64,000 nt of DNA from Methylobacter sp. (GTDB lineage: Bacteria > Pseudomonadota > Gammaproteobacteria > Methylococcales > Methylomonadaceae): positions 62,001 through 126,000 of the forward strand of contig JAQUOU010000001.1 in the NCBI GenBank assembly GCA_028716975.1, given 5' to 3'. Both the position numbers and the translations under genes were made by a program. Positions within the stretch are counted from its first letter, which is position 1, and every line of letters starts with the position of its first letter. Shown here in pieces: positions 30,903 through 55,085 of this stretch. The notes beneath the pieces are model-generated. The model saw only the letters and a list, made by a program, of their open reading frames with translations, did not search any database and was not told the origin of the DNA.

Positions 30903-32302
<1,400 letters not shown>

Positions 32303-32303
<1 letters not shown>

Positions 32304-32829: not shown

Positions 32830-32883
32830 CAAAATAATATGACAGTCATGATCATGAATAACCAAGCTCAGATCCGCTCCTGA

Positions 32884-33849: not shown

Positions 33850-33872
33850 ATCTCCTCCGTCCATTATCAAAA

Positions 33873-37066: not shown

Positions 37067-37139
37067 CGCGGGAGTTCTGGTATAAGGCAAGGCATTATCA
37101 TCCCTTGACCCGCCGGTAGATACTTTAATCCTGGAGGCC

Positions 37140-37190
37140 GTGTGAAAGCCGTTCATGCTTCGACAGGCTCAGCACGAACGGCTTTCACAC
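37140..37190. repeat. isolated long hairpin of the palindromic repeat
   Basis: GTGTGAAAGCCGTTC (37140-37154) pairs with GAACGGCTTTCACAC (37176-37190) around a repeat core (TGCTTCGACAGGCTCAGCAC). It matches the right half of the elements at 32697 and 61601. It lies between two convergent genes and may act as a bidirectional terminator. Confidence 0.7.
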
Positions 37191-37266
37191 GCTCACCCAT
37201 TGGGTTTTCAGGTTAATTATTGAAGTGGTGCAGCACGAAGTGATCCTGTTGATCAACTGGCGAAAA

Positions 37267-37746
37267 TCATTCATCCAGAGGCAGGCGTAAAGGAATCATG
37301 GGCGAGAGTGCGAAGCCATGCCTTTGATAGAAGCGTTGGGCTGATTCATTAATGCGATCGGTCAATAAGGTAATGCGCTTGCAGCCGTTGCTGCGGGCAA
37401 ACTTAACGGCGTTTTCAAGCAAATAAGAACCTACACCGGAGCCGCGATAAGCAGGGGATATGATCATATCTTCGAGTAGCGCAACCTTAGCGCCTAGCGC
37501 TGTCGATACGGTGTAAAGAAGGCAAACCATTCCGACGACTTCACTGTCCTGGCGGACCAATAGAATGTTGCCGATTTCCGGATTGTTAATGATGCGGGCA
37601 AGGCCGAGTCTCTGCGCTTCGTGATTCGGCATGAACTCAAGTTCCTGGGAAAACAGGATCTCCAGCAATTCGCAGAGTGCCGGAATGTCGGTTAAAATTG
37701 CCAAGTGTATTTGCGCCATGCGCTCACGGCTATTTTCCTCTAACAT
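37267..37746 (-). CDS. GNAT family N-acetyltransferase
   Basis: A 159-residue GNAT protein. The acetyl-CoA binding loop is in ISPAYRGSGVGSYLLENAVK and is followed by RSNGCKRITLLTDRINESAQ and FYQRHGFALSPMIPLRL. The start may be the internal Met in ERMAQIHLAI. The substrate cannot be told from sequence. Confidence 0.88.
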   Translation of the reverse strand: MLEENSRERMAQIHLAILTDIPALCELLEILFSQELEFMPNHEAQRLGLARIINNPEIGNILLVRQDSEVVGMVCLLYTVSTALGAKVALLEDMIISPAYRGSGVGSYLLENAVKFARSNGCKRITLLTDRINESAQRFYQRHGFALSPMIPLRLPLDE

Positions 37747-37813
37747 ACCCCTAACCGGGTCCGGTTCAAGAAAGCGTTAATAAGTAAAAAGCCAAATGGC
37801 CACGCATACGTTG

Positions 37814-38218
37814 TCATGGGTTTTGGATATTCCTACGATACAACTCCTCTTGCATCAAATTGGCAAGGAACTCGTCGTCGCTCTGGCCCAGCATACCCTC
37901 CGCAGGCGTCTCAGCGCACCCGCGTTCCGCGTCATCAGCAATCTCTGTCGTACACCCAATCTCCTCGCACCGTTTACGTGTAAAAATGGATGGCTGTTCG
38001 CGATCAAACACCACAGACTGTTGCGGGCTGCTTTGCCGCACCAATACCGGTGCTATTAACTTTACGCCGCTGGTAGTCTTCAGGGAAAGTTCAATGCTCC
38101 TGCGCGCCTCCACAGTAGGCGAGCCGGAAACAACGATTTTCTCCTGAAGCAAAGTTCGCCCGTTCTGGTCTATAAACCGAATGACCACTTCCCCTTCGCC
38201 GGTGATAGAAATTTCCAT
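37814..38218 (-). CDS. uncharacterised protein of an ORFan pair (second gene)
   Basis: A 134-residue protein starting MEISITGEGEVVIRFIDQNG at 38218; a longer frame upstream overlaps its neighbour and is not supported. The N-terminal ~60 residues look beta-rich with regular alternation (LLQEKIVVSGSPTVEARRSI). The C-terminal half is acidic and Cys-containing (RCEEIGCTTEIADDAERGCA, DEFLANLMQEELYRR). I recognise no family. It lies 44 bases downstream of the gene at 38263 and is probably co-transcribed with it. Confidence 0.55.
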   Translation of the reverse strand: MEISITGEGEVVIRFIDQNGRTLLQEKIVVSGSPTVEARRSIELSLKTTSGVKLIAPVLVRQSSPQQSVVFDREQPSIFTRKRCEEIGCTTEIADDAERGCAETPAEGMLGQSDDEFLANLMQEELYRRNIQNP

Positions 38219-38262
38219 GTTAGCCTCCGCCAAAATTGTTGTGCTGAAACCCAATCCAAAGC

Positions 38263-38691
38263 TTATCCAGGGAGAACTTCGTCGAGATAAGCATGCGAGC
38301 CCACCCTCCGGCCAAGTACGAACCTGAAATCTCCCGAGGGTGAGGAAAAGCCGAAGTCTTGTATCCGTAGAACGGCTATAGTGTAACCATTTAGGGGAGG
38401 CGATGAAACATGCGAAGGTGCGTGCAATATTACCGGTGGATTTCCGCCGCCAACAAGAATCATCTGCGTGAAAGCGCTCTCTGAAGAAAAGTCCAGCCAA
38501 GCAAAGCCGGATGCACCTTCTATATCTCTGCCGTAGAAGAACTGGTTCTTCTCGGTGGCGATTTCTCGGACGGTCGTCCGGTCACCGTCCAGGTCGTCAA
38601 GCGCAAGCACAAGGATAGACGGTGCGTCGGAGACCTCTGCCTGAATGATTTGCTCCACTTCAATCTGGAGCATTATGCTGCCTTTTGCCAT
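38263..38691 (-). CDS. uncharacterised protein of an ORFan pair (first gene)
   Basis: A 142-residue protein. The start could be MAKGSIMLQIEVEQIIQAEV or the second Met. It appears beta-rich (SILVLALDDLDGDRTTVREI, TQMILVGGGNPPVILHAPSH, TIAVLRIQDFGFSSP), with no signal peptide and no membrane segment. I recognise no family. The last residues SHAYLDEVLPG precede a 44-base gap to the second gene. A copy of the intergenic duplicate lies 180 bases upstream. Confidence 0.55.
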   Translation of the reverse strand: MAKGSIMLQIEVEQIIQAEVSDAPSILVLALDDLDGDRTTVREIATEKNQFFYGRDIEGASGFAWLDFSSESAFTQMILVGGGNPPVILHAPSHVSSPPLNGYTIAVLRIQDFGFSSPSGDFRFVLGRRVGSHAYLDEVLPG

Positions 38692-38871
38692 TGTCCGCCT
38701 CCCTCATAGCTTTGAACCGGTGAACTTAACAAAGAATATACTCATCGCACATCCCTGCCGACATCTTCACCCCGTCCCCTTCTGGAAATGGTCAGCGGGA
38801 CGAAATTTAAAAAAACCGAACGCGATGTGTGAATACTATAGAAGCCCCCTATACGCATATCCTTTCGTAAG

Positions 38872-38974
38872 GTGTTGATCTATTCATCAATGAAAAATAA
38901 AATAGCCTATATTTCAACCATTTCTGCAATTTACCACATCCCACAATAAAGGCAACATATCCTGCCATTTATCC
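38872..38974. repeat. ~103-base intergenic duplicate, copy B
   Basis: Partner of 33873-33976: GTGTTGATCTA, AAAAATAAAATAG, CACATCCCACAATAAAGG and ATTTATCC in the same order. The two copies differ at many positions, so the duplication is old or the element is a diverged repeat. Nothing else is recognisable in the gap 38692-39114. Confidence 0.65.
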
Positions 38975-39114
38975 GTTCCTGCCCGAATCACTCTATCGAA
39001 TGCGGTATAATAGCCGTTTCAAACCAGTATAAAATTCATACCGGGCGGGCTTATCGGGCTTTGATTAAACGCTTTATTTTAAGCTCATTATTTATCAGGA
39101 TGAAAATATCGCCC

Positions 39115-40080
39115 TTATAGCCATCCTGCCTTTTTAAAGCGGTAATAAAGGATGCTGCAGACTACGCTGATAGCGGCCAGCGCCGACGGATAACCGTATT
39201 TCCACCGCAATTCCGGCATGACTTCAAAGTTCATGCCCCAGATTCCCGCGAAAGCCGTTGCGACTGCGAATAAACCGGCCCAGGCGGCTAGCCTTTTGGT
39301 TACTTCGCTTTCCTCGATAGTCACCATCGATAGATTGACCTGAATCGCCGTGCCTATCGTGTCGCGTATCGTATCTATTGAAGTATTGATATGGTTAAGA
39401 TGATCGTAGACATCGCGAAAATATTCCTGACTATTGACACAGACTGCCGGCACCCGGCCCCGGTGCAATTTACCTGTATTTTCCATTAAGGGGGCGACCG
39501 CATGTTTAAGCGTCATTACCTTGCGCTTGAGCACGTACAGGCGTTCAATATTGGAACGCGCGGAGCCTTTTACGAAAATATGCTCTTCGATATTTTCAAG
39601 CTCGGTTTCAAGCGTATCCAGGACCGGGAAATAACGATCAACGACCGCATCCATCAAGGCATAAAACACGAAGCCTGCGCCCTGGCTCAGTAAATGCGGT
39701 TCCCGCTCGCAACGGCCGCGGACGCCCAGGAAGCCTTTACGGCTGCGATTACGCACCGAAAGAACAAAATTCGTACCCACGAAAACATCGACTTCCCCGA
39801 CCCTAAGCTGGTCGCCATCCATTTCCACTAAATGCATTACGGCAAAGACAGAGTCGCCGTATTCATCTATTTTCGGGCGCTGATGGCTGACCCAGGCATC
39901 TTCAACAGCAAGCGGATGCAAATCAAATTCCTCGCGCATTTTTTCCAGTTCGGCCAGCTCGGCATCCTGTAAGGCAACCCAGACAAAACAACCAGGTATT
40001 ATCAGATAATCGCTGATTTCCTCAATTGAAATGTCCTTGAGCTTTTTTCCTTCCTGATACGCGACACAGTTAATCAGCAT
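39115..40080 (-). CDS. corA: CorA family magnesium/divalent cation transporter
   Basis: A 321-residue CorA protein with a large cytoplasmic domain (PGCFVWVALQDAELAELEKM, AVEDAWVSHQRPKIDEYGDS) and two C-terminal membrane helices. The pore signature GMN is in FAGIWGMNFEVMPELRWKYG with the MPEL periplasmic loop. It ends with basic residues, as is common. It imports Mg2+ or Co2+. It stands alone. Confidence 0.95.
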   Translation of the reverse strand: MLINCVAYQEGKKLKDISIEEISDYLIIPGCFVWVALQDAELAELEKMREEFDLHPLAVEDAWVSHQRPKIDEYGDSVFAVMHLVEMDGDQLRVGEVDVFVGTNFVLSVRNRSRKGFLGVRGRCEREPHLLSQGAGFVFYALMDAVVDRYFPVLDTLETELENIEEHIFVKGSARSNIERLYVLKRKVMTLKHAVAPLMENTGKLHRGRVPAVCVNSQEYFRDVYDHLNHINTSIDTIRDTIGTAIQVNLSMVTIEESEVTKRLAAWAGLFAVATAFAGIWGMNFEVMPELRWKYGYPSALAAISVVCSILYYRFKKAGWL

Positions 40081-40218
40081 GAATGATGTTTCCGATAAAT
40101 GGTTTGCAAGTAAACGTAACTGAGCCGGTCATCTTAGGAACAGCACAACCGCTGGACCGGTTTAATTCGTATAGTTTTGCGGCGCATATTAGCATGGCAG
40201 GCGGGTTTTAAGAGTGCG

Positions 40219-41355
40219 TCATATAAATCTGTCCGGCAGCCATCCCCTATTAACGCATTCCCGGAAACACCAGTCTGGCGTTGTTTCGGTTTTATAGCTC
40301 CAGAAAAACCAGCCCAGGTATTGTTCAAACGTCGCCAACTCCGCGGCGGCATAGGCGCGGTACGCCACCGTCAATTGAAAATTGTCCAGACCTTCCAGAG
40401 CATGATTGAAGGGACCGCTGGCCCACAGCGATACGACCTTTAAATTGATGCCCAGACTCCATTCGCCTACATAAGTCCGCAAGCCGCGATCGCAGTTAAT
40501 ATTATCCGCTTCGTTTTTCCAATCAATAACGGTCTTTTGGACATGCCCGTAAAGATCGAGATCCAGGTCTTCACGCACAAAGCATTGATAGCGGTGAATA
40601 TCGAGTACCGCATTGCTGAATTCCGGTTCTGTTAAAAAACCGGTGTATTCAGTGTAAGAGCGGAAGCCGTCACTAAAAACCACCGCGACATCTTCAGGTT
40701 TACAGTAATTACGGATTCGGAAGTAGGCATCGGTGTTATATTTTTTTAACACATCGGTAGGGATATCCCAGCGCGGTTCATTCAGCACTTCGATGGCATG
40801 TAAGGCGGGGCGGTTGCGGTAGCGTTCGGCCAGCCGTTCGAGCACTCGCAAGGAATGGCTGATATAGTCTTCGTTAGTGTGCCATTCGCAGACATCTTTA
40901 ATACCGCCGTTGTCAAAGCCATTCTGGCAACCGGGCGCAGCATGCAGATCCAGGACGACATGCAAGCCAAATTCCTCGGCCCAATCGAAGGCGCGGTCCA
41001 GTATGTCTATGCCGCCCGCCACAAAAGGATGCGTATATTCACCATAAGCTCTGTGATAAGGATAATCCGGCCCGAATATCCAGTGACCCACCGGAATGCG
41101 TATCGCATTAATGCCGGTTTGGGCAATCCAGGCAAAGTCATCGCGGGTGATAAACGTATTCCAGTGCTGTTTCAATGTTTGCTCTGCCCGCGCGCCCAGT
41201 TCTACGCAGTACGAGGTTTCATCCGTCGCCTGCAGACCATCAAAAAGACTGGGCACCATCCATTTTTCAATGACCAGCCAGCTGCCAAGATTAACGCCGC
41301 GTAGCTTTTTCCCGAATTTGTTGTCGAAACAAGTGTTCATATTATTGCCTGTCAT
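40219..41355 (-). CDS. GH5 family glucan 1,3-beta-glucosidase-like enzyme without signal peptide
   Basis: A 378-residue glycoside hydrolase. LRGVNLGSWLVIEKWMVPSL at the start and INAIRIPVGHWIFGPDYPYH are typical of exo-beta-1,3-glucanases. The acid/base Glu is in AIEVLNEPRWDIP and the nucleophile Glu in TYVGEWSLGIN. The start may be MNTCFDNKFGKK. There is no signal peptide, so it should act in the cytoplasm on an imported or internal glucan. It follows a degenerate ABC-type transporter by 27 bases. Confidence 0.9.
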   Translation of the reverse strand: MTGNNMNTCFDNKFGKKLRGVNLGSWLVIEKWMVPSLFDGLQATDETSYCVELGARAEQTLKQHWNTFITRDDFAWIAQTGINAIRIPVGHWIFGPDYPYHRAYGEYTHPFVAGGIDILDRAFDWAEEFGLHVVLDLHAAPGCQNGFDNGGIKDVCEWHTNEDYISHSLRVLERLAERYRNRPALHAIEVLNEPRWDIPTDVLKKYNTDAYFRIRNYCKPEDVAVVFSDGFRSYTEYTGFLTEPEFSNAVLDIHRYQCFVREDLDLDLYGHVQKTVIDWKNEADNINCDRGLRTYVGEWSLGINLKVVSLWASGPFNHALEGLDNFQLTVAYRAYAAAELATFEQYLGWFFWSYKTETTPDWCFRECVNRGWLPDRFI

Positions 41356-41382
41356 ATTGAATATTAGCGAAACCCGAAAGCT

Positions 41383-43077
41383 TTACAAGGTAATTCGCCG
41401 CCGGTGAAATCTCCCTACCGTCGGCTGGTTGGTCACTGTCAATAGCGCCGCATCAGGCAATTCCTGGCAAATCAACCGGAACATCTCGATTTCACCATCA
41501 GGGGTAAGCGAATCAAATGCTTCCTGCAATAAAATCCACTTGGGCCGCCGCAGCAGCAGCCTAACCAATCCCAAGCGTTGCTGCTGCTCACGCGATAATG
41601 CCTTATCCCAGAAATCAACCTGGTCAAGTTGGGCGGTCAATTCCTTCACCCCCGCAAGCTTCAGCGCTTGCTCAAGCGAAATCTGACTGACGGCTTCATC
41701 GAAAGACGGATAGCAAATCGCCGCGCGTAATGTGCCGGCCGGTAAATAAGGTCTCGGCGGCATAAAAAACATCGGCTCGTCATCGGGCAACTCAATGCGC
41801 CCTGATCCCCACGGCCACAGACCTGCTATCGCCTTAAATAACCTGGAGCCATCAAACGTATTGCCGACGATAAGAACACGCTCCCCTGCCCTTATTTCAG
41901 CATTTAGCGAAGGGATGCAGACGACGTTGTCGAGTCTTGCGATACATAAATCCTGAAACCGCAGAATAGAATCTTCGCCTTTTTCCAGCACGATCCGGTG
42001 CGGGTCGGATCGTTCAAGCTCCAGTTCCAAATTGTCCAGTGCTTTCATTAAACCCAGTACGCGCTCGACCGATGCACGCCATTGCGCAACCGTAGACATA
42101 TTATCGACCGGCCACGATAATGCGGAGGTCATCTGTTGAAATGACTGAACCGATTGCATTAACGCGCCCAGAGTGATACTTCCGAGAATATAGCGCGGGG
42201 CGGATACCAGCACAGGGAACGCCATCGACAATACCGAATAGCCGGATGTGAACAGCATAATATTCGACAACGCATGTGTTTGGCGGTTATAGGCGCCGGC
42301 AATATCCTGAAACAGCCTGAAAAAACGCTTTTGCTCGTCAGCTTCGCTATGAATCAACGCTATCGCCAGCGAATTTTCACGCGCCGTCACCAGGTTGAAA
42401 CGGAAATTAGCCTCTACCGTTTGCCTGCTGTCTGTGGCCTTAATTAACGGTTTGCCGATACGCCAACCTAAAAATGACGCAATAACCGCGTAAAAAATCG
42501 CTATCCAGACCAGATGGCCGTATACGGAAATTTCAACAAACCCTAAATTAACAATCACTTTCCCCGACAGCGTCCAGAGAATAGCTGTAAAACTGATCAG
42601 CACCAGCAGGCTGTAGAACAGCGAATGACACAACGTGATCGCATCTTCAGTGGCAATACGAATATCCTCGGCAATGCGGCCATCGGGATTGTCGTGATTT
42701 GCCGACTGTATATGCGTCACCTGATAATGATGCGCCTTATCCATCCATTGGCCGATGACGCGTTCCGTCAACCAGCTGCGCCACTCTACCTGCATACGGC
42801 GCTTTATTTTTAAATGGGTAGCGGTTGCAGCCATACTGACGGCAAAAATCAGGATAAGCAGGGCGACCTGTTTCCATAAACCATGCATCGAGTGCTGTTC
42901 AAGGGCATTGAAAAGCGCCGCGCTCCATTCGGTAATAACCACGGCAATAACTATCTGAATGACAGTAAGGATGATCAGCGCCAGCGTCCGTTTGCGAATA
43001 GCGTCCTTATTTTCAGAGCTCCAGAAAGGACCGGCCAGACGTATGAATTGGAGGAAAAATCCATTTGAATACTGCAT
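41383..43077 (-). CDS. ABC transporter permease/ATPase of the SbmA/BacA-YddA type with degenerate ATPase domain
   Basis: A 564-residue half-transporter. The membrane domain (ABC_membrane_2) covers residues ~1-330, with FRFNLVTARENSLAIALIHS and the start FIRLAGPFWSSENKDA. The ATPase domain at ~370-564 has lost key residues. Walker A reads GNTFDGSRLFKAIAGLWPWG, without the Lys. The signature reads LSREQQQRLGLVRLLLRRPK. Walker B reads WILLQEAFDSL, with Gln for Asp. The reading frame is open and otherwise well conserved. It probably works as a secondary transporter or in a non-hydrolytic role. Confidence 0.88.
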   Translation of the reverse strand: MQYSNGFFLQFIRLAGPFWSSENKDAIRKRTLALIILTVIQIVIAVVITEWSAALFNALEQHSMHGLWKQVALLILIFAVSMAATATHLKIKRRMQVEWRSWLTERVIGQWMDKAHHYQVTHIQSANHDNPDGRIAEDIRIATEDAITLCHSLFYSLLVLISFTAILWTLSGKVIVNLGFVEISVYGHLVWIAIFYAVIASFLGWRIGKPLIKATDSRQTVEANFRFNLVTARENSLAIALIHSEADEQKRFFRLFQDIAGAYNRQTHALSNIMLFTSGYSVLSMAFPVLVSAPRYILGSITLGALMQSVQSFQQMTSALSWPVDNMSTVAQWRASVERVLGLMKALDNLELELERSDPHRIVLEKGEDSILRFQDLCIARLDNVVCIPSLNAEIRAGERVLIVGNTFDGSRLFKAIAGLWPWGSGRIELPDDEPMFFMPPRPYLPAGTLRAAICYPSFDEAVSQISLEQALKLAGVKELTAQLDQVDFWDKALSREQQQRLGLVRLLLRRPKWILLQEAFDSLTPDGEIEMFRLICQELPDAALLTVTNQPTVGRFHRRRITL

Positions 43078-44032
43078 GTTTTGTGCTCCGGATTATCGGA
43101 AAAAATAGTCAAACGGCGTCATGCAAACACCTGTCTCCTGTTTTTATCGTTCTTAATGACGCCACAAGACGCTCATCCGACATCCTGCTCTTACGCAGGT
43201 AAAATCATAGCCAGACCTGTAGCCGTTTCTGCATTATTGTTTAACAGATATTAATATTATATTTATTATTAACGACATAGTCGGACTAATTTCAGTTCTG
43301 GATGAGAATCGAGGGAGAAAAAAGGCTTGCCTGTGTCTTAAAAGCCACTCCTTTACTGCAGATTCTCTATAAATACTCGAAAAGCCGCGCCAAGGTGTCT
43401 TAAGCTTATATAAAGAGCGATTGCTTTAACATTTCAGGCTATCCCGGAGAGATACTTATAATGAAAGAAGTGATGACCAAAATTTATGTATCCGGCGCAT
43501 AAAATTCGATCAGCCTAAGCCCGTAAGCTAATGAATTGGCATACAAATGTTGGGTTACTCGATAAAGCCGTTAACCCAACCCGCGCGAACTGCTGGATTT
43601 ATTAATTTTCTATGGATCTGCCGCGTTAATAGCATCGAAAATTTCGGCCTGATTTTTTCATGTCGCTATAGGTAACCTCTAAAAATACCGTGCTTAGCCA
43701 AGGCTCTCCTGAGCGTAGACCAAAAGCTCAGCACGAACGGTTCTAAATGCTATCAAAAAGTTAAGTTCGTGGTGAGTTTGTTGAACCATGAGCGTAACTT
43801 ATTTTTAGAGCCTCCCTATAGCCGTTCAAAACCGGCAATAGCACAAAATGTTTTCTACCGGAATAATTTCATTAAACCGTCATATTCGTTCTATAGCATT
43901 GGCAGTTAATAACTCATCTTGCTGACTCGACAATCCGGAGAGCCGGTTTAAAGAATCAGCACAGGTGACGATCACTGCCGGGTCGCCTGTCCTGCTATGG
44001 TCGACTAGAAACAACTACCATCCAGGGGTTTT
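43078..44032. other. long intergenic region with one MITE-like repeat
   Basis: A 955-base gap between divergent genes. The MITE-like element at 43671-43816 is described separately. A 13-codon frame (MKEVMTKIYVSGA, 43461-43502) has a fair ribosome binding site but no family. A hairpin-like GGGTTACTC...GTTAACCC lies near 43552-43580. No protein-coding gene is supported. Confidence 0.4.
43671..43816. repeat. MITE-like palindromic repeat, short form
   Basis: The ends GGTAACCTCTAAAAATA and TATTTTTAGAGCCTCCC are clear inverted repeats. The interior (CTCTCCTGAGCGTAGACCAA; CTCAGCACGAACGG; GTTCGTGGTGAG) aligns over its length with 4950-5096. Confidence 0.8.
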
Positions 44033-45085
44033 ATGACTTTGAGAATTGCCTTCATCAGCGATGCCTGGCATCCGCAAATAAACGGCGTGGTGACCACCAT
44101 CGAAAACACCTGCTCAACCCTGGAACGGTCCGGCCATCGCATTAAACTCATAACTCCTGAGCAGTTTAAAACCATTCCCTGCCCAACTTACCCGTCAATC
44201 CGGTTAGCGCTGGCCTGTTACGGAAAATTAACAAGGCTATTGGATGAATTCAACCCTGAACGCATTCATATAGCCACGGAAGGCCCATTGGGGCTGGCGG
44301 CGCGGCGCTATTGCCTGAGCCGGAGTCTGGCCTTCACCACGTCATTTCATACTTTGTTCGCAGAATACGTTAACTTGCGCTTTAAAATTCCCGTCTCATG
44401 GGGTTACGGTTTTTTGCGCTGGTTTCATGCGCCGGCAAAACGGGTCATGGTTGCCACGTCCTCGATAGAATCGGATATGAAAGCAAGGGGATTTAAAAAT
44501 AGCCTGGTTCGCTGGTCTCGCGGCGTAAATCCTGATTTTCATTATCCAAGAGCTAAGGCTTTCATAACACTGCCTCGCCCGATTTGCATGTTTGTTGGAA
44601 GAGTAGCTATTGAAAAGAATATTGAGGCATTTTTATCTTTAGATATTCCGGGTACAAAAATTGTGGTGGGAGACGGTCCGCAACTGAACGAACTTAAAGT
44701 CAAATTTCCTGAAACGGTTTTTGCCGGTTTCCAGACCGGTGAACCCTTGGCTCAATATCTGGCTGCCGCGGATGTGTTTGTATTTCCCAGTCGCACCGAC
44801 ACCTTCGGCATTGTCTTGCTGGAAGCATTAGCCAGCGGCTTGCCGGTTGCGGCTTTCCCCGTAAACGGGCCAATTGATGTAATTACCAGCGATAAAGTGG
44901 GTAGGCTTGATGAAGATTTAAAGAAAGCAATTGCCGAGGCGTTAAAATTGGACGCGCGGGACTGCCGGAATTATGCCCTTAACTATTCCTGGACTTATTG
45001 TACCGAGCAGTTTTTTAATAATCTTGTCTCCGCTTCTGAAGGAAGTAAGCAGCCGGCAAGTAAGTCAGTCCATAGGCTGAGTTAG
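44033..45085 (+). CDS. GT4 family glycosyltransferase
   Basis: A 350-residue GT-B glycosyltransferase. It starts MTLRIAFISDAWHPQINGVV and has EGPLGLAARRYC and FTTSFHTLFAEYVNLRFK. The C-terminal nucleotide-sugar site is in ADVFVFPSRTDTFGIVLLEA and LASGLPVAAFPVNGPIDVI. It resembles alpha-mannosyltransferases and sulfoquinovosyl/glycolipid transferases that glycosylate membrane lipids. The exact donor and acceptor are not clear. Confidence 0.9.
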   Translation: MTLRIAFISDAWHPQINGVVTTIENTCSTLERSGHRIKLITPEQFKTIPCPTYPSIRLALACYGKLTRLLDEFNPERIHIATEGPLGLAARRYCLSRSLAFTTSFHTLFAEYVNLRFKIPVSWGYGFLRWFHAPAKRVMVATSSIESDMKARGFKNSLVRWSRGVNPDFHYPRAKAFITLPRPICMFVGRVAIEKNIEAFLSLDIPGTKIVVGDGPQLNELKVKFPETVFAGFQTGEPLAQYLAAADVFVFPSRTDTFGIVLLEALASGLPVAAFPVNGPIDVITSDKVGRLDEDLKKAIAEALKLDARDCRNYALNYSWTYCTEQFFNNLVSASEGSKQPASKSVHRLS

Positions 45086-45140
45086 CGGCTTTGCCGTGCA
45101 AGCTAATATTTGTACAGCGATTCATTAGTTTACTGCTTAG

Positions 45141-45171
45141 ATTAATAACCCAACACATGTGGGTTATTAAT
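45141..45171. terminator. perfect 12-base inverted repeat, possible bidirectional terminator
   Basis: ATTAATAACCCA (45141-45152) and TGGGTTATTAAT (45160-45171) flank a 7-base loop, 56 bases after the glycosyltransferase stop. The A/T ends could give a U-tract in both directions. A second hairpin (GGTGGTTC...GAACCACC) lies near 45203-45227. Confidence 0.5.
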
Positions 45172-45574
45172 CACCGGACGACCGTACGGCGGATGAATTG
45201 TAGGGTGGTTCCGCTTTAGCGAACCACCAACACGAAATATCATACAGACTTCTACACCGACATTTCCAAGCGTGTGTTTTTATGTGGGCGGCATGCCTGG
45301 ACATTTTCCATTGTTTGGCATTGGCGAATTGTCGCTTTACTCCGAATCCGCCCTCGATACTACTACAATACTCCTTGAACTGGCAAAACGTCTTGTGATA
45401 ACGATTCAATATTCGTCACGAGTTTGGGCGAAGAGAAATCCGGGCAGCTTCCCTTCTTTCGCCGGTATGCTCGGACAGTCTCCTAGCGAATGCCAGTCCT
45501 GCCAATTGATGCATAATGCTAACCGGGTTAATTTGAAAGGAGAAGTCATGCGAAAAATCAATTCATTGACATAG

Positions 45575-45641
45575 CTTGAACACTTGGAGTAAAAATACAC
45601 CCGGTCGATGCGTTAGCCTTCAGGTGTTCAAGTTCGACCGG
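45575..45641 (+). promoter_or_regulatory. interleaved double inverted repeat (possible pseudoknot or switch) in the leader of the Gly-rich protein gene
   Basis: Segment A (CTTGAACACTTG, 45575-45586) pairs with A' (CAGGTGTTCAAG, 45621-45632). Segment B (CCGGTCGA, 45601-45608) pairs with B' (TCGACCGG, 45634-45641). The order A-B-A'-B' means that the two stems interleave and can form either a pseudoknot or two alternative hairpins. It lies 127 bases upstream of the start codon at 45769. No other gene is visible in 45086-45768. Confidence 0.45.
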
Positions 45642-45768
45642 AATCAGTATTCAAATTAATCCGAATACGCACGATGGGTCTTTGGTGTCGTTTATCTAAA
45701 CCCACCCACCGATGACGTTATTGACAGCCATCAATTCTCATGTCCACACGTCCATAAGGAATCAGGCT

Positions 45769-48700
45769 ATGAAGTTAAATCCATTAAGCAAAGCCATATC
45801 GGTAATTTTGATTGTCGGCACCGCCGGCGTAACGCCCCAGCCGGCATGGGCTGATACCATCGTTGTCACCGGCAGTGACGGCGCGGCCGGTACGCAAGGC
45901 ATACCCGGCAATCCGGGAACCGATGGCGGCAATGGCGCGGCAGGCGGCGATGTCTCGGCGCTCGCTAACGGATTGACGTTAGACAACAATGCCACTGCAA
46001 CCGGCGGAATGGGTGGAGCTGGCGGCGCTGGGGGAGCGGGTACGCCTAATGGCGCAAATGGAGGTAATGGCGGCAAGGGTGGTAAAGGCGGCAATGCGCA
46101 GGCCACTGCGGCCACTGACTTAAGCCAAAGTTTAAACACGGCGGCGACCGCGTCGGCATCTGCCGGTAATGGCGGCGCCGGCGGTATCGGCGGCGCAGGG
46201 TCGATGCCCGGCATTGATGGAACCCGCGGTAGCGCAGGAACGGGCGGTGATGCTTTGGCGACGGCTTCATCCCGTAATACCGGCAGCGGCGGCAGTGCCG
46301 CCAACGCGGTTTCATACGGCGGTAGCGGCGCCGGTACAGGTAGCGATATAGGCTCTGGCGCGAATGGCGGCAGCGCAAATTCGTCGGCCAGCGCGACCAG
46401 CGCGACCGGCATTGGTATCACGATCGCGCAAAGCACCGCTCAGGGCGGTAACGGCGGTCAAGGGTATGGCGACGCCGCCCAAAAAGGCGGCAATGGCGCC
46501 ACCGCTACCGCCACCGCTAGCGGCAGTTCCAGCCGAGGCGGCGATGTCCAAGTTTATGCTTACCAAAGTGGGGGAAGTGGTGGTTACGGCTTTGGTAGTG
46601 GTGGCATCGGTGGCAATGGCGCCAACGGCGGCAATGGCGCCGATTCCATCATGCATAATGCCGTTACCGGTTCGACCAGCGGGGTATTGACCCTCGGTCA
46701 GTACGCCACTGGCGGTAATGGCGGGGGAACCTTTGACGGTGCAAGCGGATTGGCCGGTATGGCCATTTCCAGCTTGTCGGCAAGCAATACCGAAAGCAGT
46801 TCGCTAAACACCAGAACAAGCGCGATCGGCGGCGTGGGCGGCGATTTTAACTATATAGGCGGCTCCAAGGGCGGCGATGCCATAGCCATTAATACCACGG
46901 ATAGCCATGGTGACGGGCACAACATCAATGCCAACAGCTATGCTGAAGGCGGTCGCGGTGGAAATAACGGTATCTATGGTTCAGGTATGACGGGCGGTAA
47001 CGCCACCAGTATAACCACGGGTACCGCCAACGGTAACAGTTATGTTCAGGTCAACGATAAAGCAACCGGAGGTAGTGGAGGCTATGGCTATCCGAGTGGA
47101 GCCGGTATAGGCGGTTCTGCTTCTTCTTTCGCTTTTGGCAGTAATGCCGGTAATCAAAGCGTTGAAGTCACCAGTACCGCCATTGGCGGTGTTAGCTACG
47201 GTGGCGCCACAGCCAGGGCTAGAGGCAGTTCCAGCGGCGGCGGCAATGTCACTGTTAACGCATACCAATACGGCGGTAGCACTGACGGCGGTAACGGCGC
47301 CTATTCCAGCATGCACAATGCGGTAACCGGTTCGACTGGCGGTACGCTCACCTTGGGACAGTATGCTTACGGCGGTAACTCCAGGTTTTTCCAGGATAGA
47401 TATAACGAGTTCGTTGGAAACGGCGGCGCCGCTGCCTCTACCCTAAATGTGGTCAATTCCAATAGCCAGGTTTTAAACACCGTAACGCACGCTAGCGGCG
47501 GTACCGGTAGTGGTAATATTTTCGGGTACTATGATACTGCCGGTGCTGGGGGGAATGCTACCGCCGATAATACCGCCTATAGCTACGGCAACGGACGCAG
47601 CATACATGTGAATAGCGAGGCAGTAGGCGGCGGCGGTGGATCTAGCTTTTACGGCGACGGGGATAAAGGCGGGGATGCCACCAGCCATTCAAGCGGCTCT
47701 TCTGGCAACAGCAGCAATATTTATGTCAGCAATGAGGCGACAGGCGGCGGCGGTGGATCTAGCTTTTACTCCGGCGCGGGTAAAGGCGGCGATGCCGCCA
47801 GCAATGCAAACGGCCAATCCAGCGGTAACGGCTATTATATTCAGGTCAACGATAAAGCAACCGGAGGGAATGGAGGGAATGTTGAGAGTTTTATTTCTTC
47901 TCTTGATGGCGGCAACGGCGGCGCTGCAACGTCTATCGCTGGCGCCGGCAGTTCCGGCAATGGAGGTGTTTCTGTAGCCAGTCATGCTACTGGCGGCAAC
48001 GGAGGCGCCGTTAATAGGTATGTACAGTTGGATGCAGATTATGCCGGCAACGCCAATAATGGCGGCAACGGCGGGGCGGCAGTCTCTAACGCTAGTGCGG
48101 ACGTCAATGCGACGGGTGGCCAGAGCATTTCTGTCGCCAGCAACGCTAAGGGCGGTCAGGGCGGCTCCAATGCCAGCCCTTACGGCCGCAGCGGTAACGG
48201 CGGCAGCGCTTCTGCAACCACAAACGCCAGTAACCGCGGCAATCAATCAGTTTATGCCACAAGTTCAGCGGCTGGCGGTAGGGGGGGCGAATCGCGGAAC
48301 GGTTCTTATCAAGGCTTGGCCGGCGATGCTCAAGCACACACCACAGCGCGCAGCCTAGGCTATGCGTCAAGTTCCGCAACCGCAACGGCTGGCACCGGCT
48401 CAGCGCTCGCCAAGCTGGTAATGGCCGAAGCCACCTCGGTGGGGGGTAACGGTGCGTATGCCAAAGCGGCAGCCAGTCAAAACCGTTCCGATTCGTCTTC
48501 TTTTGCCTCGGTCTCTGCCTTAGCCAGCGTTTCTAACGCCGTTGCCGGCACCAGCGACGTAAAGGCGTCGCTTGGACAACCGGCGCCAGCCGCCTCGTTG
48601 GCCAACAGTAAGGAAGCGGCCGCTTATGCCACCGCTTTACCTTTATCGACCGATGCGGCTGCCGCCGTGGCTGGCCATGCCAATGTCAGCCGCGATTTCA

Positions 48701-49236
48701 ACATTAGTGCTAACCCGCAAGCGTGGTTGTTGGGTAACCAGGGCGTATTAAATACCGCACTCGACGGAAGCGTCCATGATTATTCCAGCGAGATCGATCT
48801 GAACATTAATACGGCGGGCTATAACAATCAGCAAGATTTATTGCTGGGATTGCTATCGCCGGTATTTGGCGCCAATGATCTAGGGGCTAACGACCTGTTG
48901 AGCTTAAACATCATGGTCTCCGGCGCTGGCGGTACGCTATCGAAAGACTATAGTTTTAGCGAGTTGCTTAACCTTAACGCCGCCGGCAGCGCCGCGAATT
49001 TCTTCCACGACAAAACCTTGGATTTGGGCCCCTGGTCAGGACTTGTGACAACGGCCGACGCCAATCTGGATATCGCGTTAATCCTTAATCTGCATACCCA
49101 CACTAGCTATACCGGCATGAGCTTCAATTATCTTCTGGGTGTCAGCGCGGTACCGGTACCGGCTGCATTCTGGCTATTTGCTTCGGCATTGTTGGGCTGG
49201 GCTGGCTTTAATCGCCTTAAACAAACCTCTGTTTGA
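45769..49236 (+). CDS. giant Gly/Ala/Ser-rich repetitive protein with VPxPA-CTERM sorting signal
   Basis: A 1155-residue exported protein. The start MKLNPLSKAISVILIVGTAG has AAGGA upstream and a signal peptide ending near PAWA-DT. Residues ~25-950 are very rich in Gly, Asn, Ala and Ser, with recurrent GGNGG, ATGG and GGDA units. Longer internal repeats include QVNDKATGG, SMHNAVTGSTGGTLTLGQYA and GGGGGSSFY. A non-repetitive C-terminal domain (~970-1120) precedes VPVPAAFWLFASALLGWAGF and NRLKQ, the VPxPA-type PEP-CTERM signal read by an exosortase. The protein is likely surface-attached or matrix-bound. The antisense Pro-rich frames are artefacts. Confidence 0.88.
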   Translation: MKLNPLSKAISVILIVGTAGVTPQPAWADTIVVTGSDGAAGTQGIPGNPGTDGGNGAAGGDVSALANGLTLDNNATATGGMGGAGGAGGAGTPNGANGGNGGKGGKGGNAQATAATDLSQSLNTAATASASAGNGGAGGIGGAGSMPGIDGTRGSAGTGGDALATASSRNTGSGGSAANAVSYGGSGAGTGSDIGSGANGGSANSSASATSATGIGITIAQSTAQGGNGGQGYGDAAQKGGNGATATATASGSSSRGGDVQVYAYQSGGSGGYGFGSGGIGGNGANGGNGADSIMHNAVTGSTSGVLTLGQYATGGNGGGTFDGASGLAGMAISSLSASNTESSSLNTRTSAIGGVGGDFNYIGGSKGGDAIAINTTDSHGDGHNINANSYAEGGRGGNNGIYGSGMTGGNATSITTGTANGNSYVQVNDKATGGSGGYGYPSGAGIGGSASSFAFGSNAGNQSVEVTSTAIGGVSYGGATARARGSSSGGGNVTVNAYQYGGSTDGGNGAYSSMHNAVTGSTGGTLTLGQYAYGGNSRFFQDRYNEFVGNGGAAASTLNVVNSNSQVLNTVTHASGGTGSGNIFGYYDTAGAGGNATADNTAYSYGNGRSIHVNSEAVGGGGGSSFYGDGDKGGDATSHSSGSSGNSSNIYVSNEATGGGGGSSFYSGAGKGGDAASNANGQSSGNGYYIQVNDKATGGNGGNVESFISSLDGGNGGAATSIAGAGSSGNGGVSVASHATGGNGGAVNRYVQLDADYAGNANNGGNGGAAVSNASADVNATGGQSISVASNAKGGQGGSNASPYGRSGNGGSASATTNASNRGNQSVYATSSAAGGRGGESRNGSYQGLAGDAQAHTTARSLGYASSSATATAGTGSALAKLVMAEATSVGGNGAYAKAAASQNRSDSSSFASVSALASVSNAVAGTSDVKASLGQPAPAASLANSKEAAAYATALPLSTDAAAAVAGHANVSRDFNISANPQAWLLGNQGVLNTALDGSVHDYSSEIDLNINTAGYNNQQDLLLGLLSPVFGANDLGANDLLSLNIMVSGAGGTLSKDYSFSELLNLNAAGSAANFFHDKTLDLGPWSGLVTTADANLDIALILNLHTHTSYTGMSFNYLLGVSAVPVPAAFWLFASALLGWAGFNRLKQTSV

Positions 49237-49623
49237 GCTGACTGAGTACTACGAGGCATTCGATGTTCTGACGCGCCAACTCCGCGCCTTAAGGTAGACG
49301 ACATGCAGCTTTTTCTCAGGTCAGTGCTGATGGATGGTCATGAATTATTAGTACACTTCGTCAATGGCCTTGTCAGTAAAGTCGACCTCTAGGCTGTCAG
49401 GTTTTGTACTTAAATTTAGGCATAATAACGCATTCATTTTCCACAAATGCGGCCGCAGAGAGTATAAAAAAATAACAGCGGCGAATGCGCTTACAGGCAG
49501 GTCTGGAAGATGCAGGTTACTAACCGTTACCTTTGCGCAGGTGGATTCTTAGCGCAGTCATTGTCAACGATTTGCCGGGTATCGATGCGAAAGCTATAGC
49601 CGTGATGCCAGAAATCTAACGAT
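49237..49623. other. intergenic region without recognisable features
   Basis: 387 bases between the convergent Gly-rich protein gene and HAD gene. No credible frame, repeat core or terminator with a clear U-tract was found. Confidence 0.4.
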
Positions 49624-50283
49624 TCATGGAATAGGCTGGGTAGTACTAACAAAATGAGCGAGCAGCTTGGGAAGCTGTAACATATCGTCAAATAATACTT
49701 CGTCTCCGGGTCGGCGTGACGAGGTTTCACCCTCTCGCACATACTGGAAGGCTTTCATCCCTGCCGCCGCGGCGGCCTCCATTCCCACTTCGCTATCTTC
49801 TATAACCACGCATTGGCCCGGCATAAAACCCATAGCCTTGGCTGCGTATTGGAATATCGCCGGCTCCGGCTTCCAGGAACCAACTTCATATGAACTGAAG
49901 ATGCTGTCGCCAAAGTAAGGGGCAAGGCCGCTGACTTGCAATGCCTGACGGATTTTCAAAAGCGGCCCGCTTGAGGCAATGCATTTGGGGAAGCTCGTGG
50001 CTTCGAGCATTTCAATAACGCCGGGCATGGGTTTCAACTCATGAAAGAAGAGTTCGGCAACACGCTGGCGATAATGCTGTTCAAACGTGTCTGGCAGATT
50101 CTGGCAAAGACGGCTTTCAAGATCAGCAAGAATTGGCGCCAGCTTTTTGCCGCGGTACCGCTGGATCATTGATTCCACTGTATCATTCAGTTGAGGAAGC
50201 AATTCGAGAAACGCTTGATTGCAAAGTCCTTCACTATCGACGAGCGTACCGTCCAGGTCAAAAATTACACAGATAGTGGTCAT
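49624..50283 (-). CDS. HAD family hydrolase (YieH/6-phosphogluconate phosphatase-like)
   Basis: A 219-residue HAD phosphatase. Motif I is VIFDLDGTLVDSEGL with the nucleophilic Asp. Motif II is KCIASSGP. Motifs III and IV are in VGSWKPEPAIFQYAAKAMGF and CVVIEDSEVGMEAAAAAGMK. The cap domain is helical. The substrate is a small sugar or sugar-acid phosphate by similarity. The gene lies at the right edge of the segment that splits the N-ATPase operon. Confidence 0.9.
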   Translation of the reverse strand: MTTICVIFDLDGTLVDSEGLCNQAFLELLPQLNDTVESMIQRYRGKKLAPILADLESRLCQNLPDTFEQHYRQRVAELFFHELKPMPGVIEMLEATSFPKCIASSGPLLKIRQALQVSGLAPYFGDSIFSSYEVGSWKPEPAIFQYAAKAMGFMPGQCVVIEDSEVGMEAAAAAGMKAFQYVREGETSSRRPGDEVLFDDMLQLPKLLAHFVSTTQPIP

Positions 50284-50405
50284 CTACCAAGATGCTCAAG
50301 GCAATATATACCATGTCCCTTATCCAATAATCCCGCTGTCATATCGTATAATCATCTCTGGTTAAAATTATCTTATTGTTAAATAAGAATAAAGTATAAG
50401 TCAAC

Positions 50406-50540
50406 ATGACAAACCACGCCAATAAACACGGCATTTTCCCACCCAAGAAATTACTGGATTAAACACCCAGCAAGATTCGTTTTAAGCAGTATAGCCTGAG
50501 CATCGAAAATGCTTATATTTCCTAAATTAAGAAATTGTAC
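50406..50540 (+). pseudogene. N-terminal remnant of an integron-type tyrosine recombinase
   Basis: In one frame from the ATG at 50406 the translation reads MTNHANKHGIFPPKKLLD, stop, TPSKIRFKQYSLSIENAYIS, stop, IKKLYALAG, stop. This follows the N-terminal arm of IntI-type integrases (consensus near PPKLLDQVRxxIRxKHYSxRTEQAYxxWIKRFI), with Q and W codons replaced by stops. Nothing of the catalytic domain remains. It lies 210 bases before atpQ, at the right-hand break of the N-ATPase operon. The rest of 50284-50750 shows nothing else. Confidence 0.75.
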
Positions 50541-50750
50541 GCCCTGGCTGGATAATTTTGGTATTCTCAAATCAAGACACTTGCCGATATTGTTGGTTGT
50601 TTTTAAAAATATATCCAGTCCACCAGATCAGTTAGTTTAATTTCAGGCAAGGTGGAACTTTACTAAAATCGAAGTAGCATTGCTGTTACACAACAAACAA
50701 TAATAGGAAGGTAGAATAGGTTTCGTACCCCAATCTCTTTTATTTTGACC

Positions 50751-51023
50751 ATGAACAATCAACAGCGCCTCAAAAAGAAGATTGAAGGCCAGATTAAACG
50801 CATTAAAAAAGCGGAACATGATAGACCGAATCTGTTCTCACAAACGGTCGGTCTCGGCACATTGGGTTTAGTGATGGTGCTGCCTATTATTGGCGGTGTG
50901 TATCTGGGGCATTGGCTGGACAGTATAGGGGAAGGTTACTCAGCACATTGGACGCTGAGTTTATTGTTTGCCGGATTGGTTATCGGGATTTTTAATGTGT
51001 ACTTTCTGATTAAAGATAAATAG
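50751..51023 (+). CDS. atpQ: N-type ATPase accessory subunit AtpQ (AtpI-like)
   Basis: A 90-residue protein of the ATPase gene-1 family. The ATG at 50751 (MNNQQRLKKK) is chosen over an in-frame TTG two codons upstream. A basic N-terminus (KIEGQIKRIKKAEHDR) precedes two membrane helices (TVGLGTLGLVMVLPIIGGVY and WTLSLLFAGLVIGIFNVYFL). In N-ATPase operons AtpQ is followed by AtpR; here only 63 bases separate it from atpB, so atpR is missing. It may help assemble the c ring. Confidence 0.88.
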   Translation: MNNQQRLKKKIEGQIKRIKKAEHDRPNLFSQTVGLGTLGLVMVLPIIGGVYLGHWLDSIGEGYSAHWTLSLLFAGLVIGIFNVYFLIKDK

Positions 51024-51086
51024 AGGAAGCGTCCTCTACCCTTATAGAGAGATTTTTTCTTTATCAACTATTAGCGAGTATCCATC

Positions 51087-51752
51087 ATGGATCATGAATT
51101 TTCATTTGCCCTGGGTCATGTAATAATTGGCGCATCTATCCTTACCACCTGGGGAATAATGCTGGTGATTACGGGGATAGCCTGGTTTACAACCCGGCGC
51201 CTGGATATGTTGCCAGATTCGTTGCAAACCACGGTTGAAGGCATTGTTGCAGCCATTGATGAGGCCATAAGCGCTGTCGCGCCTGAACACGGACGGCAAA
51301 TCATGCCTTTTATCGCTTCCCTTTGGCTGTTTTTGATTATTGCCAATCTTGTTGGCTTAATACCGGGCCTGCATTCGCCTACCCGCGATCTTTCGGTTAC
51401 CTCGGCGCTGGCTGTGTTAGTATTTTTATCGGCGCACTGGTTTGGCATAAAAACACAGGGGTTGAAGAATTATCTGCATCATTACCTGACACCCAGCCCG
51501 ATTTTGCTGCCTTTTCATATTATCAGTGAATTTACCCGCACTCTGGCGTTGGCCATGCGTCTATTCGGCAATATGATGAGCCTGGAATTGGCGGCCATGC
51601 TGGTTTTGCTGGTGGCCGGTTTTCTCGCCCCCATTCCTATTTTAATGTTGCATATCATAGAAGCACTGGTACAAGCTTATATTTTCGGCATGCTGGCGCT
51701 GATCTATCTGGCCGGCGCCATGCAATCCCAACAACTTAACTCACAGGAATAA
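51087..51752 (+). CDS. atpB: N-type ATPase Fo subunit a
   Basis: A 221-residue a subunit with five to six membrane helices. The essential Arg is in FTRTLALAMRLFGNMMSLEL, and the last helices are PIPILMLHIIEALVQAYIFG and MLALIYLAGAMQSQ. AIDEAISAVAPEHGRQIMPF near the N-terminus is typical of the N-ATPase group. It forms the ion path with the c ring. Confidence 0.94.
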   Translation: MDHEFSFALGHVIIGASILTTWGIMLVITGIAWFTTRRLDMLPDSLQTTVEGIVAAIDEAISAVAPEHGRQIMPFIASLWLFLIIANLVGLIPGLHSPTRDLSVTSALAVLVFLSAHWFGIKTQGLKNYLHHYLTPSPILLPFHIISEFTRTLALAMRLFGNMMSLELAAMLVLLVAGFLAPIPILMLHIIEALVQAYIFGMLALIYLAGAMQSQQLNSQE

Positions 51753-51755
51753 CTT

Positions 51756-52025
51756 ATGACCGACATAGCCTTGATTGTGCTTGGCTCCAGCGTCGCCGCC
51801 ATTATCGGAATCGCGCTCGGAGTCATGATGCCTGCGCTGGCCATGGGTAAAGCCATAGGTAGTGCGCTAGATGCCTTATCGCGGCAGCCTGAATCGGAAC
51901 GTTCGATTCTGCGCACGCTGTTTATCGGTTTGGCCATGATCGAATCACTGGCGATTTATTGCCTGGTTATTATCTTGATTGTGCTGTTCAAAAATCCATT
52001 ACTTGAATACATAGTCAATAAATAA
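51756..52025 (+). CDS. atpE: N-type ATPase Fo subunit c
   Basis: An 89-residue hairpin proteolipid. Helix 1 runs to GVMMPALAMGKAIGSALDAL, the loop is SRQPES, and helix 2 is LFIGLAMIESLAIYCLVIIL with the ion-binding Glu63 followed by Ser64 and Tyr68. N-ATPase c subunits usually have a second carboxylate or Gln in helix 1 (motif G-x-G-E/Q-G); here that position is Met30. This changes the expected cation site and argues against a classical Na+ site. Confidence 0.93.
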   Translation: MTDIALIVLGSSVAAIIGIALGVMMPALAMGKAIGSALDALSRQPESERSILRTLFIGLAMIESLAIYCLVIILIVLFKNPLLEYIVNK

Positions 52026-52043
52026 GCTCATCTGAAAGCCTCT

Positions 52044-52793
52044 ATGGAATTCAATATCTCCACCTTCACTCTTGAAATCATCAATTTCCTGATTCTAATA
52101 TGGATTTTGCAGCGGCTTTTTTATAAACCGCTACTGGAAGTTATCGCCACGCGCAAACAGACTATTGACCAATCGCTTGCCGATGCCAAAAAGCTGCATC
52201 AAGAAGCTGTTGAGCTGCGCACTATTTATGAAAGTCGCCAACAACTGTGGGAACAGGAAAAGCAGGCCGCGCTCGCCGCGCTGCATCAACAAATCGAAGC
52301 CGAAAGAGGCGTTCAAATAGACAGGCTTCATGCTGAACTTGAACAGGAACGGCAAAAAGCCAAGGTAACCCTCACACGTCAACAGCAGGAGCTTCAACAA
52401 CAAGCCGAAAAACAGGCGTTACAAAACGGCGCCCGCTTTGCCGGGCTGCTGCTGCAGCAAGCAGCCGGAGCGGAATTGGAGGCGCGTTTATTCGACCTGT
52501 TGCTGGATAATCTCAAGACTTTACCCGAAGCATGCAAACTCGGCTTGCAAATTCTGGAGCATAAAAAATCCACCGTTATAAAAATCACCAGTGTTTACCC
52601 GCTTGCTATTGATCAGAAGCAGCAGTTAGAGCAAAAGCTGGGTTTGTTAATCAACAGTCCGATTAATTTTCAATATTTTCAAGATGCCGCATTAATCGCG
52701 GGTTTTCGGATCGATATTGGCGCCTGGGTTTTGCATGCCAATTTGAAACACGAACTGGCCGGTTTTGCCGAGATGGCTAATGAAGCCGAATAA
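52044..52793 (+). CDS. atpF: N-type ATPase Fo subunit b, long form
   Basis: A 249-residue b subunit: one N-terminal membrane helix ([20 protein letters not shown]), then a long charged coiled coil (residues ~35-140) and a C-terminal domain that takes over the role of the delta subunit. N-ATPases lack a separate delta gene and have this extended b. It overlaps the atpA start by 14 bases. Confidence 0.92.
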
Positions 52794-54267
52794 ATCTACC
52801 AGCGTTCTGCAAAGGCAGGCAGACTGGCTCGCTAATTACAAGCCAGGGCTTCGTGTTACCGAACAAGGCACAGTGGTTTCCGTCGGTGACGGCATTACCT
52901 GGATCAAGGGCCTGCCTTCGGCCGCCATCGAAGATATACTGATTTTTGCCGATGGCAGCCGCGGCATGGTGTTTGACCTTAACCGCGATAGAATCGGCGC
53001 TATTTTATTGTATGAAACCGAAGCGCTGACGTCAGGCACGACAGTTTTTCTGTCCCGGCACTCACTCAGCATACCGGTAGCTGAGGACTTTTTAGGCCGG
53101 ATTATCGACCCATTAGGAATGCCATTGGATGGCCTGCCGCCGCCAGCCCATGCAGGACGGGAAAACCTGGAAAAAGCATCACCGGCAATTATCGCGCGGG
53201 ATTTTGTTCATAAACCTTTATATACCGGCATTAAAATTATCGACACACTGATTCCGATAGGTAAAGGCCAGCGGCAATTGATAATCGGCGATGAAGGACT
53301 GGGCAGAACATCAATCGCTATCGATACCGTCATTAATCAAAAAGACCAGGATGTGCTCTGCATCTATGTCATGATCGGCCAGAAGCGTTCCTCCGTTGTC
53401 AGCACCATAGAAACCCTGAGATCTTATCAAGCGCTGGACTACACCGTCTGTGTCGTCGCCGAAGCCAGCGCTTTGCCCGGTTTACAGTATATCGCTCCGT
53501 TTGCAGGCTGTGCGCTGGCGGAATACTGGATGGCGCGAGGACGTGATACGCTGATTATTTACGACGACCTGTCCACCCATGCCAGAACCTATCGGGAACT
53601 GTCCCTGCTGCTGCGCAGGCCACCGGGGCGAGAAGCTTATCCCGGCGACATCTTCTTTGTCCATTCACGTCTTTTGGAGCGCTCAACCTGCCTGAATGCC
53701 GAAAACGGCGGCGGCAGCCTGACAGCATTGCCCATAGTCGAAACCAAACAAGGTGAAATTGCGGCCTATATTCCAACTAACCTGATCTCCATTACCGACG
53801 GGCAAATCTACTTGAATAATGAGCTATTTGTTTCAGGATTCCGTCCGGCTATCGATATCACCAAATCAGTATCCAGGATAGGCGGTAAAGCCCAGCATCC
53901 GGGCATTAGCACTCAATCAGGACAAATGAAACTGGAATATCTACAGTTTTTGGAGCTGGAGATGTTTACCCGCTTCGGCCAGCGCCTTGAAGCCTCTATG
54001 GAGGAGCGGATTAAAAGAGGCCGGCTGTTACGGGAAATACTGAAGCAGGATCGCCTCTCTCCGCTGAGTTGCTGTTTTCAATTGGCCTGGCTGATTGCCT
54101 TTAATGACGGTTTTTTTAATGCGGCAGAGCCTAAGGAAATAGGTAAAGTTCTGGCAAAAATCGAACAAGGCACTGCAACCACGACACTCACGCTGGACAG
54201 CAGCCATGAACAATGGCGACAAGCGATCCAGGACTGGCTGAACCTTGACGCCAAGCAGCCGTCATGA
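52780..54267 (+). CDS. atpA: N-type ATPase F1 subunit alpha with degenerate P-loop
   Basis: A 495-residue alpha subunit starting [20 protein letters not shown]; the ATG lies inside the end of atpF. The nucleotide site, GDRQTGKT in ordinary alpha subunits, reads [18 protein letters not shown], with Arg175 for the Walker Lys and the Gln and Thr also changed. Other motifs are kept: [35 protein letters not shown] and [16 protein letters not shown], with the arginine finger. Noncatalytic nucleotide binding is therefore doubtful. The gene is followed by atpG with an ATGA overlap. Confidence 0.94.
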
Positions 54268-55085
54268 GCCAAAGCCGCGAACTGCAACTGCATATCACTC
54301 AAATGGAGGAGATACGCGTCATTTTAAACTCAATGAAAAACCTGGCTTTACTGGAAATTCATAAGCTGGCCCGTTTTCAAAACATGCAGGGTCAGGTTGT
54401 GACTAATATTGAAAATGCGGCGATTGATTTCCTGGCTTTTTACCCTTGCTTGCCCCCGGCAGAGAATAACGCCAAGCATATTTGCATTTTAATGGGGGCT
54501 GAGCGCGGTTTTTGCGGTGATTTCAATGAAAGCCTGATTAATGCCATTGCGCCAGAAACTTATTCAGGCATCATTGCAATTGGCAGCAGGCTTTATAACA
54601 AGCTGGCTGGTAACCTCTCCAATTTAATGTTCTCAATCGAAGGGGCCAATGTCGCTGAAGAAGTACCCGCCATCCTTAACCGTCTGATCGATAACATTAA
54701 CTCATTGGAGACAACAGATAGTTTGTTGATCTTGACTATCGTTTATCATGACAACGCCGCCAGCCGGATTACTCAAAAACAGGTGCTTCCTCCCTTCCCT
54801 GAGCAAAATAAGGAAAGGCCCAATTATAAACATCCGCCCCTGCTCAATCTTGATCCGGCTGATTTCTTTTCTGATCTGGTCGATCATTACTTATTCGCTG
54901 TACTGCATGAAATCTTTTATAACTCCCTGATATCGGAAAATCATCGGCGTTTGCAGCACCTGGAAGGAGCGGTAAAGCATCTGGATGATGAAACGGTAAC
55001 TCTGCGCCGAAAATCGCAGGTCTATCGCCAGGAAGAGATTACCGAGGAAATTGAGGTCATTCTATTGAACGCAGAGAACTTTTAA
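54264..55085 (+). CDS. atpG: N-type ATPase F1 subunit gamma
   Basis: A 273-residue gamma subunit, the rotating shaft. The N-terminal helix [20 protein letters not shown] and C-terminal helix [20 protein letters not shown] are the usual coiled pair; [16 protein letters not shown] is the conserved region. It is the last gene of the downstream half-operon. Nothing like atpR or delta follows it. Confidence 0.93.

Follow-up and report, generated by a model that had tools for sequence, protein, structure and literature searches.

Nearly one third of intI genes have been reported as pseudogenes (Nemergut et al. 2008, PMC2426708), and a chromosomal integron with such a gene is described there as a 'pseudointegron', while an attI and an intI without detectable attC constitute the In0 element of IntegronFinder 2.0 (PMC9024848). 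N-type ATPase operons (atpDCQRBEFAG) are known as horizontally acquired (PMC4154653). In the window, i.e. the whole 64,000-nucleotide stretch of Methylobacter sp. DNA that was analysed, integron remains lie inside a split N-type ATPase operon (Table 1). They resemble the pseudointegron in having stops, a frameshift and deletions, and in the presence of more than one intI per genome, but are far more decayed, most of the catalytic part being lost and no attC being left at the locus. Like In0, they consist of attI and intI without detectable attC, whereas the integrase here is a fragment that would be missed by a standard whole-protein model and one former cassette is present. The integrons of Methylobacter sp. 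KS41 (G159 C1, L087) and of genome G029 (C194, L013) share the intI lineage and the attI sequence with the relic and have attC sites of the family alongside, but differ from it in their intact integrases and other chromosomal places. The locus is an ordinary integron of a known kind, though unusually decayed. IntI was found in 77 of 151 genomes of the family, and the literature on integrons in Methylobacter yielded nothing on this locus. We consider it probable that the locus holds integron remains, namely a decayed attI, an internally deleted intI and one ex-cassette encoding a phosphatase-like HAD-family hydrolase, which arrived as a passenger at an already broken operon; the attI and intI homology, the exact core-site junction and the role of the HAD gene as a cassette in one relative have been demonstrated by sequence comparison.

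Table 1. Coordinates, strands and supporting evidence of the features at the split operon and of other integron debris in the window.
Feature	Position	Strand	Evidence or remark
Second attI and first intI codons	15238..15418	+	66% over 139 bp to G029, E 4e-12; nhmmer 2e-4
Small ORF (by eye resembling VOC/glyoxalase) placed as first cassette at the attI of 15.2 kb	14862..15230	-	starts 17 nt past core site
atpD-atpC, left half of split N-ATPase operon	30912..32701	+	TIGR03305, TIGR03166
Composite DNA between operon halves	32702..50292		34.1-43.1 kb core common to G001 C47, plus window-specific inserts; 43.1-50.3 kb unmatched there
Second intI fragment, ~codons 66-93	34056..34137	+	nhmmer E 4e-9 and 5.6e-9; protein QGKITASTQNQAG, stop, ALLFII, E 0.006
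Probable third intI fragment, ~codons 3-33	38990..39080	+	nhmmer E 1.1e-6, 19 bits versus null maximum of 5-8; weak as protein
HAD-family hydrolase gene, putative former first cassette at the 50.3-kb attI	49624..50283	-	HAD models; core site in orthologues; attC in RS1
attI core site CTTGAGC (decayed GTTRRRY), junction with HAD gene	50294..50300	-	attI homology stops here; fits GTTRRRY 6/7
Decayed attI / intI upstream region	50293..50405	+	part of 245-bp match to G029; G159 and 15.2-kb attI also match
intI pseudogene, N-terminal arm (piece originally reported)	50406..50540	+	DNA and protein homology
intI pseudogene, internal piece, ~codons 99-121, past internal deletion and frameshift	50541..50607	+	tblastn, 48%
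intI pseudogene, C-terminus KNISSPPDQLV and stop	50605..50640	+	matches IntI KGVTSPLDQLV and stop
Pre-atpQ sequence common to G062 and G004	50648..50750	+	touches relic; without intI in G062 and G004
atpQ to atpG, right half of split N-ATPase operon	50751..55085	+	TIGR02230, altF1_A, alt_F1F0_F1_al and gamma models

The frame with stops at 50406-50540, which in the ORF translation of the window reads MTNHANKHGIFPPKKLLD, stop, TPSKIRFKQYSLSIENAYIS, stop, IKKLYALAG, stop, had originally been predicted to be a relic of an integron-type integrase, and this was borne out by DNA comparison with 61 related genomes and by profiles. Positions 50293-50537 matched the 5′ end of the intact intI in G029 (L013 1501-1745) at 71% DNA identity over 245 bp (E 9e-29), and the intact intI of G015 matched the relic at 70% (E 3e-15); another match, to G008 L015 (38 bits), was put down to AT-richness and chance, as no intI lies there. 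A profile of ~20 family intI genes with their upstream DNA found the relic by nhmmer with 32 bits (E 6e-11), compared with a top score of 7.8 bits in 31 randomised windows (30 dinucleotide shuffles and the reversed window). The translated search for integron integrases proposed in the original prediction was likewise positive, giving E 3e-6 with a protein profile, a faint E 0.016 with the NCBIfam integron-integrase model NF011946 and the internal tblastn match, and Pfam had no match on the relic. The relic is thereby confirmed, by similarity beyond chance, as an integron-type integrase pseudogene.

While the frame itself was as first described, its extent had been drawn too short, and the true span is 50293-50640. 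Homology to relatives begins at 50293, the G029 match extending ~110 bases upstream of intI into the attI side, and the stretch up to the frame is non-coding. Past the frame, the internal piece PWLDNFG-ILKSRHLPILLVVF (50542-50607; in the alignment also written PWLDNFG-ILKSRHLPILLVVFK) matches IntI PWLDGFERSRKPRRLPVVL and is by itself weak in nhmmer (E 0.3-0.7), and the C-terminal KNISSPPDQLV with its stop scored 36, with a runner-up of 17, in an exhaustive control of the 3063 stop-terminated 11-mers of the window. Because N-terminal arm, internal piece and C-terminus with stop are all kept, the relic is a whole intI with a deleted middle and not an N-terminal arm alone. The region of the tyrosine recombinase catalytic residues and the intI-specific patch is deleted, all codons after ~121 being gone except the last eleven, and intI is thus present as a pseudogene only. 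Between the end of the relic and the atpQ ATG (50751), which lies downstream, are 110 bases. No second copy of it was found in its own genome by blastn, and Rfam had no match in the window, so no known structured RNA accounts for the region.

In the alignment of the 50.3-kb and 15.2-kb attI of the window with those of G029, G159 and G106, similarity was lost at the core site. The minus-strand attI sequences of the window end in GTATATATTGC before CTTGAGC (50.3 kb) and in GTATATATTAC before GTTAGGC (15.2 kb), and those of the relatives in GTATATATTAC before GTTGATC (G029), GTATACATTAC before GTTATGT (G159) and GTATATCAC before GTTGGGC (G106). An attI is thus found beside the intI with a cassette junction at its core, the core at 50.3 kb being decayed by one base. 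Directly past this core the HAD gene starts, in cassette orientation, and its DNA homology to orthologues spans 49637-50311 and no further. Five orthologues, those of G106, Methylobacter sp. KS41, M. luteus, M. marinus and Methylomicrobium sp. RS1, have a perfect GTTRRRY exactly 10 nt before the HAD ATG. In RS1 (L159), the core site is followed by HAD, GNAT and then a correctly oriented 123-bp attC (5225-5347), past which lie more attC; these bounds make HAD a genuine gene cassette in RS1, and the window keeps the attI side of them only. Neither the HAD orthologue of M. psychrotolerans nor the second copy in M. luteus has a core site, indicating that not all copies of the gene are cassettes. 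The attC scan of the window gave no convincing site (scores of 13-14, with a background of 19 matches per 400 kb at 13.5, and 14-20 in the relatives and on contig C9 of the same genome), so the proposed cassette status of the HAD gene in the window rests on its position, the one-mismatch core and the orthologues. CorA was also considered as a cassette and rejected, the core site being absent in three orthologues.

Further integron debris was detected in the window and elsewhere in the genome. The 15.2-kb attI retains an intact GTTAGGC core, and no attC was found for the small ORF beside it. The stretch past this ORF, 14740-14860, by eye resembles part of a group II intron, and Rfam at gathering threshold is empty there. 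In G106, an attI/intI-5′ relic (69%; L154 7508-7673), like the relic at 15.2 kb, adjoins the HAD orthologue. The genome search for an intact intI with attC sites, suggested at the outset, recovered attC sites on contig C9 (L009 8517-11268), but the second intI alongside them is nearly complete with two frameshifts, which may be real changes or assembly errors. On contig C11, attI and 36 intI codons lie at ~30.2 kb; among 400 kb sampled from the genome this was the sole clear relic, besides one further weak match (L115).

A different reading is that attI and the 5′ pieces of intI have been kept as promoters of former cassettes, i.e. that fossil attI regions drive domesticated genes. An attI with an intI 5′ piece is found beside an outward-reading gene at 50.3 kb, at 15.2 kb, at 30.2 kb of C11 and at the HAD orthologue of G106, and the minus strand has a match to TTGACT-18-AACAAT at 50404-50375. 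However, the scan for promoter consensus matches, which also bears on a cassette promoter Pc, gave 4 in the region, hardly above the shuffles (mean 2.2, sd 1.6); the pieces kept at 34.06 and 38.98 kb are not attI, and neutral decay accounts for the same facts. We regard retention as promoters as rather unlikely, and it is doubtful, somewhat more so, that decayed integrons leave attI and intI-5′ fossils that each drive one domesticated ex-cassette, as fixed promoter-gene units at several loci.

The ATPase genes around the relic were assigned to the N type by matches to alternate F1F0 subunit models (TIGR03305, TIGR03166, TIGR02230, TIGR03306 and TIGR03324), several of them below curated cut-offs. 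The subunit genes thus correspond to those of the N-type operon but stand in two halves, with 18 kb between atpC and atpQ, whereas atpD-atpC-atpQ-atpB are contiguous in most relatives examined, which makes the split derived. The atpB of the window is nearer to those of G159/G062 (90%) than to that of G001 (83%), the reverse of ppsA, and this conflict makes it plausible that the ATPase genes themselves were exchanged, a matter separate from integron mobility. Palindromic REP-like repeats (by eye, of the CCCTGAGCGTGTCGAAGG type) were seen at 32720-32820.

That the whole 18 kb was once mobile as a unit, as had been proposed, found no support. Similarity to G001 breaks off at 43109, which leaves the 18 kb with at least two parts, one of which is common to G001 at another locus; the CorA, ABC, GT4 and HAD orthologues sit at unrelated, separate places in relatives, no attC was found within the 18 kb, and its biggest genes, a plus-strand hybrid kinase and a PEP-CTERM-like repeat protein, are not oriented as cassettes would be. 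By these comparisons the 18 kb is a composite and not a cassette array, most of its genes not being cassettes. The repeat protein (45712-49236; 1174 aa) is glycine-rich with a PEP-CTERM-like end, VPVPAAFWLF...LLG, and has no Pfam or NCBIfam match.

The closest genome tested, the same-genus G001 (ppsA 92% identical), carries on its contig C47 (L185/L186) APH, a broken atpD, atpC, HK, GNAT, GH5 and ABC with 70-84% DNA identity to the window, and no intI at this left junction, which makes the left break older than the lineage of the window. It has neither the DUF/intI insert (atpC-HK) nor the CorA/intI insert (GNAT-GH5), and these are window-specific additions or losses in G001. The same-genus comparison comprises this one genome, whose matching locus has no right operon half, and so bears on the left break rather than on the succession of events at the right one. 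G001 C47 keeps residues 1-58 of a decayed atpD together with atpC and the four initial atpQ codons, and a short stretch of the window, 62869-62956, also matches near its end; a separate complete N-ATPase operon on C74 (L056) may mean that one copy was lost once another had been gained, or that it was replaced. Elsewhere, atpC is separated from atpQ by a short insert bounded by repeats in G062 and by a toxin-antitoxin-like one in G004, neither with intI, and the operon is opened by tamA-tamB-like genes in G152 and by an HNH/toxin-like segment in G007 and is inverted in G161 (inserts named from their ORFs). Across the N-ATPase loci of G004, G062, G152, G007, G161 and G159, the atpC-atpQ-atpB junctions have been opened repeatedly in the family, each time by unrelated DNA.

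The original prediction went further and had site-specific recombination or insertion cause the split, i.e. an integron would have entered between atpC and atpQ, gathered DNA and decayed. The relic does sit at the right break and, as the proposed comparison of the locus confirmed, none of the relatives examined has it at an N-ATPase locus; moreover, three intI pieces in 18 kb versus one clear relic in 400 kb of the same genome make the block look enriched, the sample being small and non-random. But the atpC-HK left junction exists in G001 without intI, the pre-atpQ DNA is common to G062 and G004 where intI is lacking, the block has no attC, and its large plus-strand genes do not have the cassette orientation; an integron as the cause is hence very unlikely. 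A MITE-like origin of the scraps, from a small mobile element derived from intI ends, is scarcely credible, as the several short attI and intI-5′ copies in one genome vary in extent, belong to different intI lineages (RVKHYSIRTE type on C9 and C11, RFKHYSLST type at 50.4 kb) and lose homology at the core site and not at terminal repeats.

In the passenger reading that we favour, the operon would have been broken earlier at the atpC-atpQ junction by a rearrangement, and the integron, to judge from the relatives, would be a later arrival at an insertion-prone place. A working integron may have inserted the HAD cassette by IntI-mediated recombination at attI, after which intI presumably decayed through stops, a frameshift and a deletion, and loss of the HAD attC would have frozen the gene in place. 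Two other intI fragments lie in the 18-kb DNA missing from G001, so repeated integron-linked insertions at the atpC-atpQ place are possible.

Integron debris of this sort escapes annotation by whole-protein models, the attI and intI remnant being recognisable only by DNA comparison with relatives. The locus also offers a worked case of a recombinase relic at a breakpoint that, judged by synteny, is in all probability a passenger rather than what caused the break, and its HAD gene is a testable candidate for a cassette turned into a fixed chromosomal gene.
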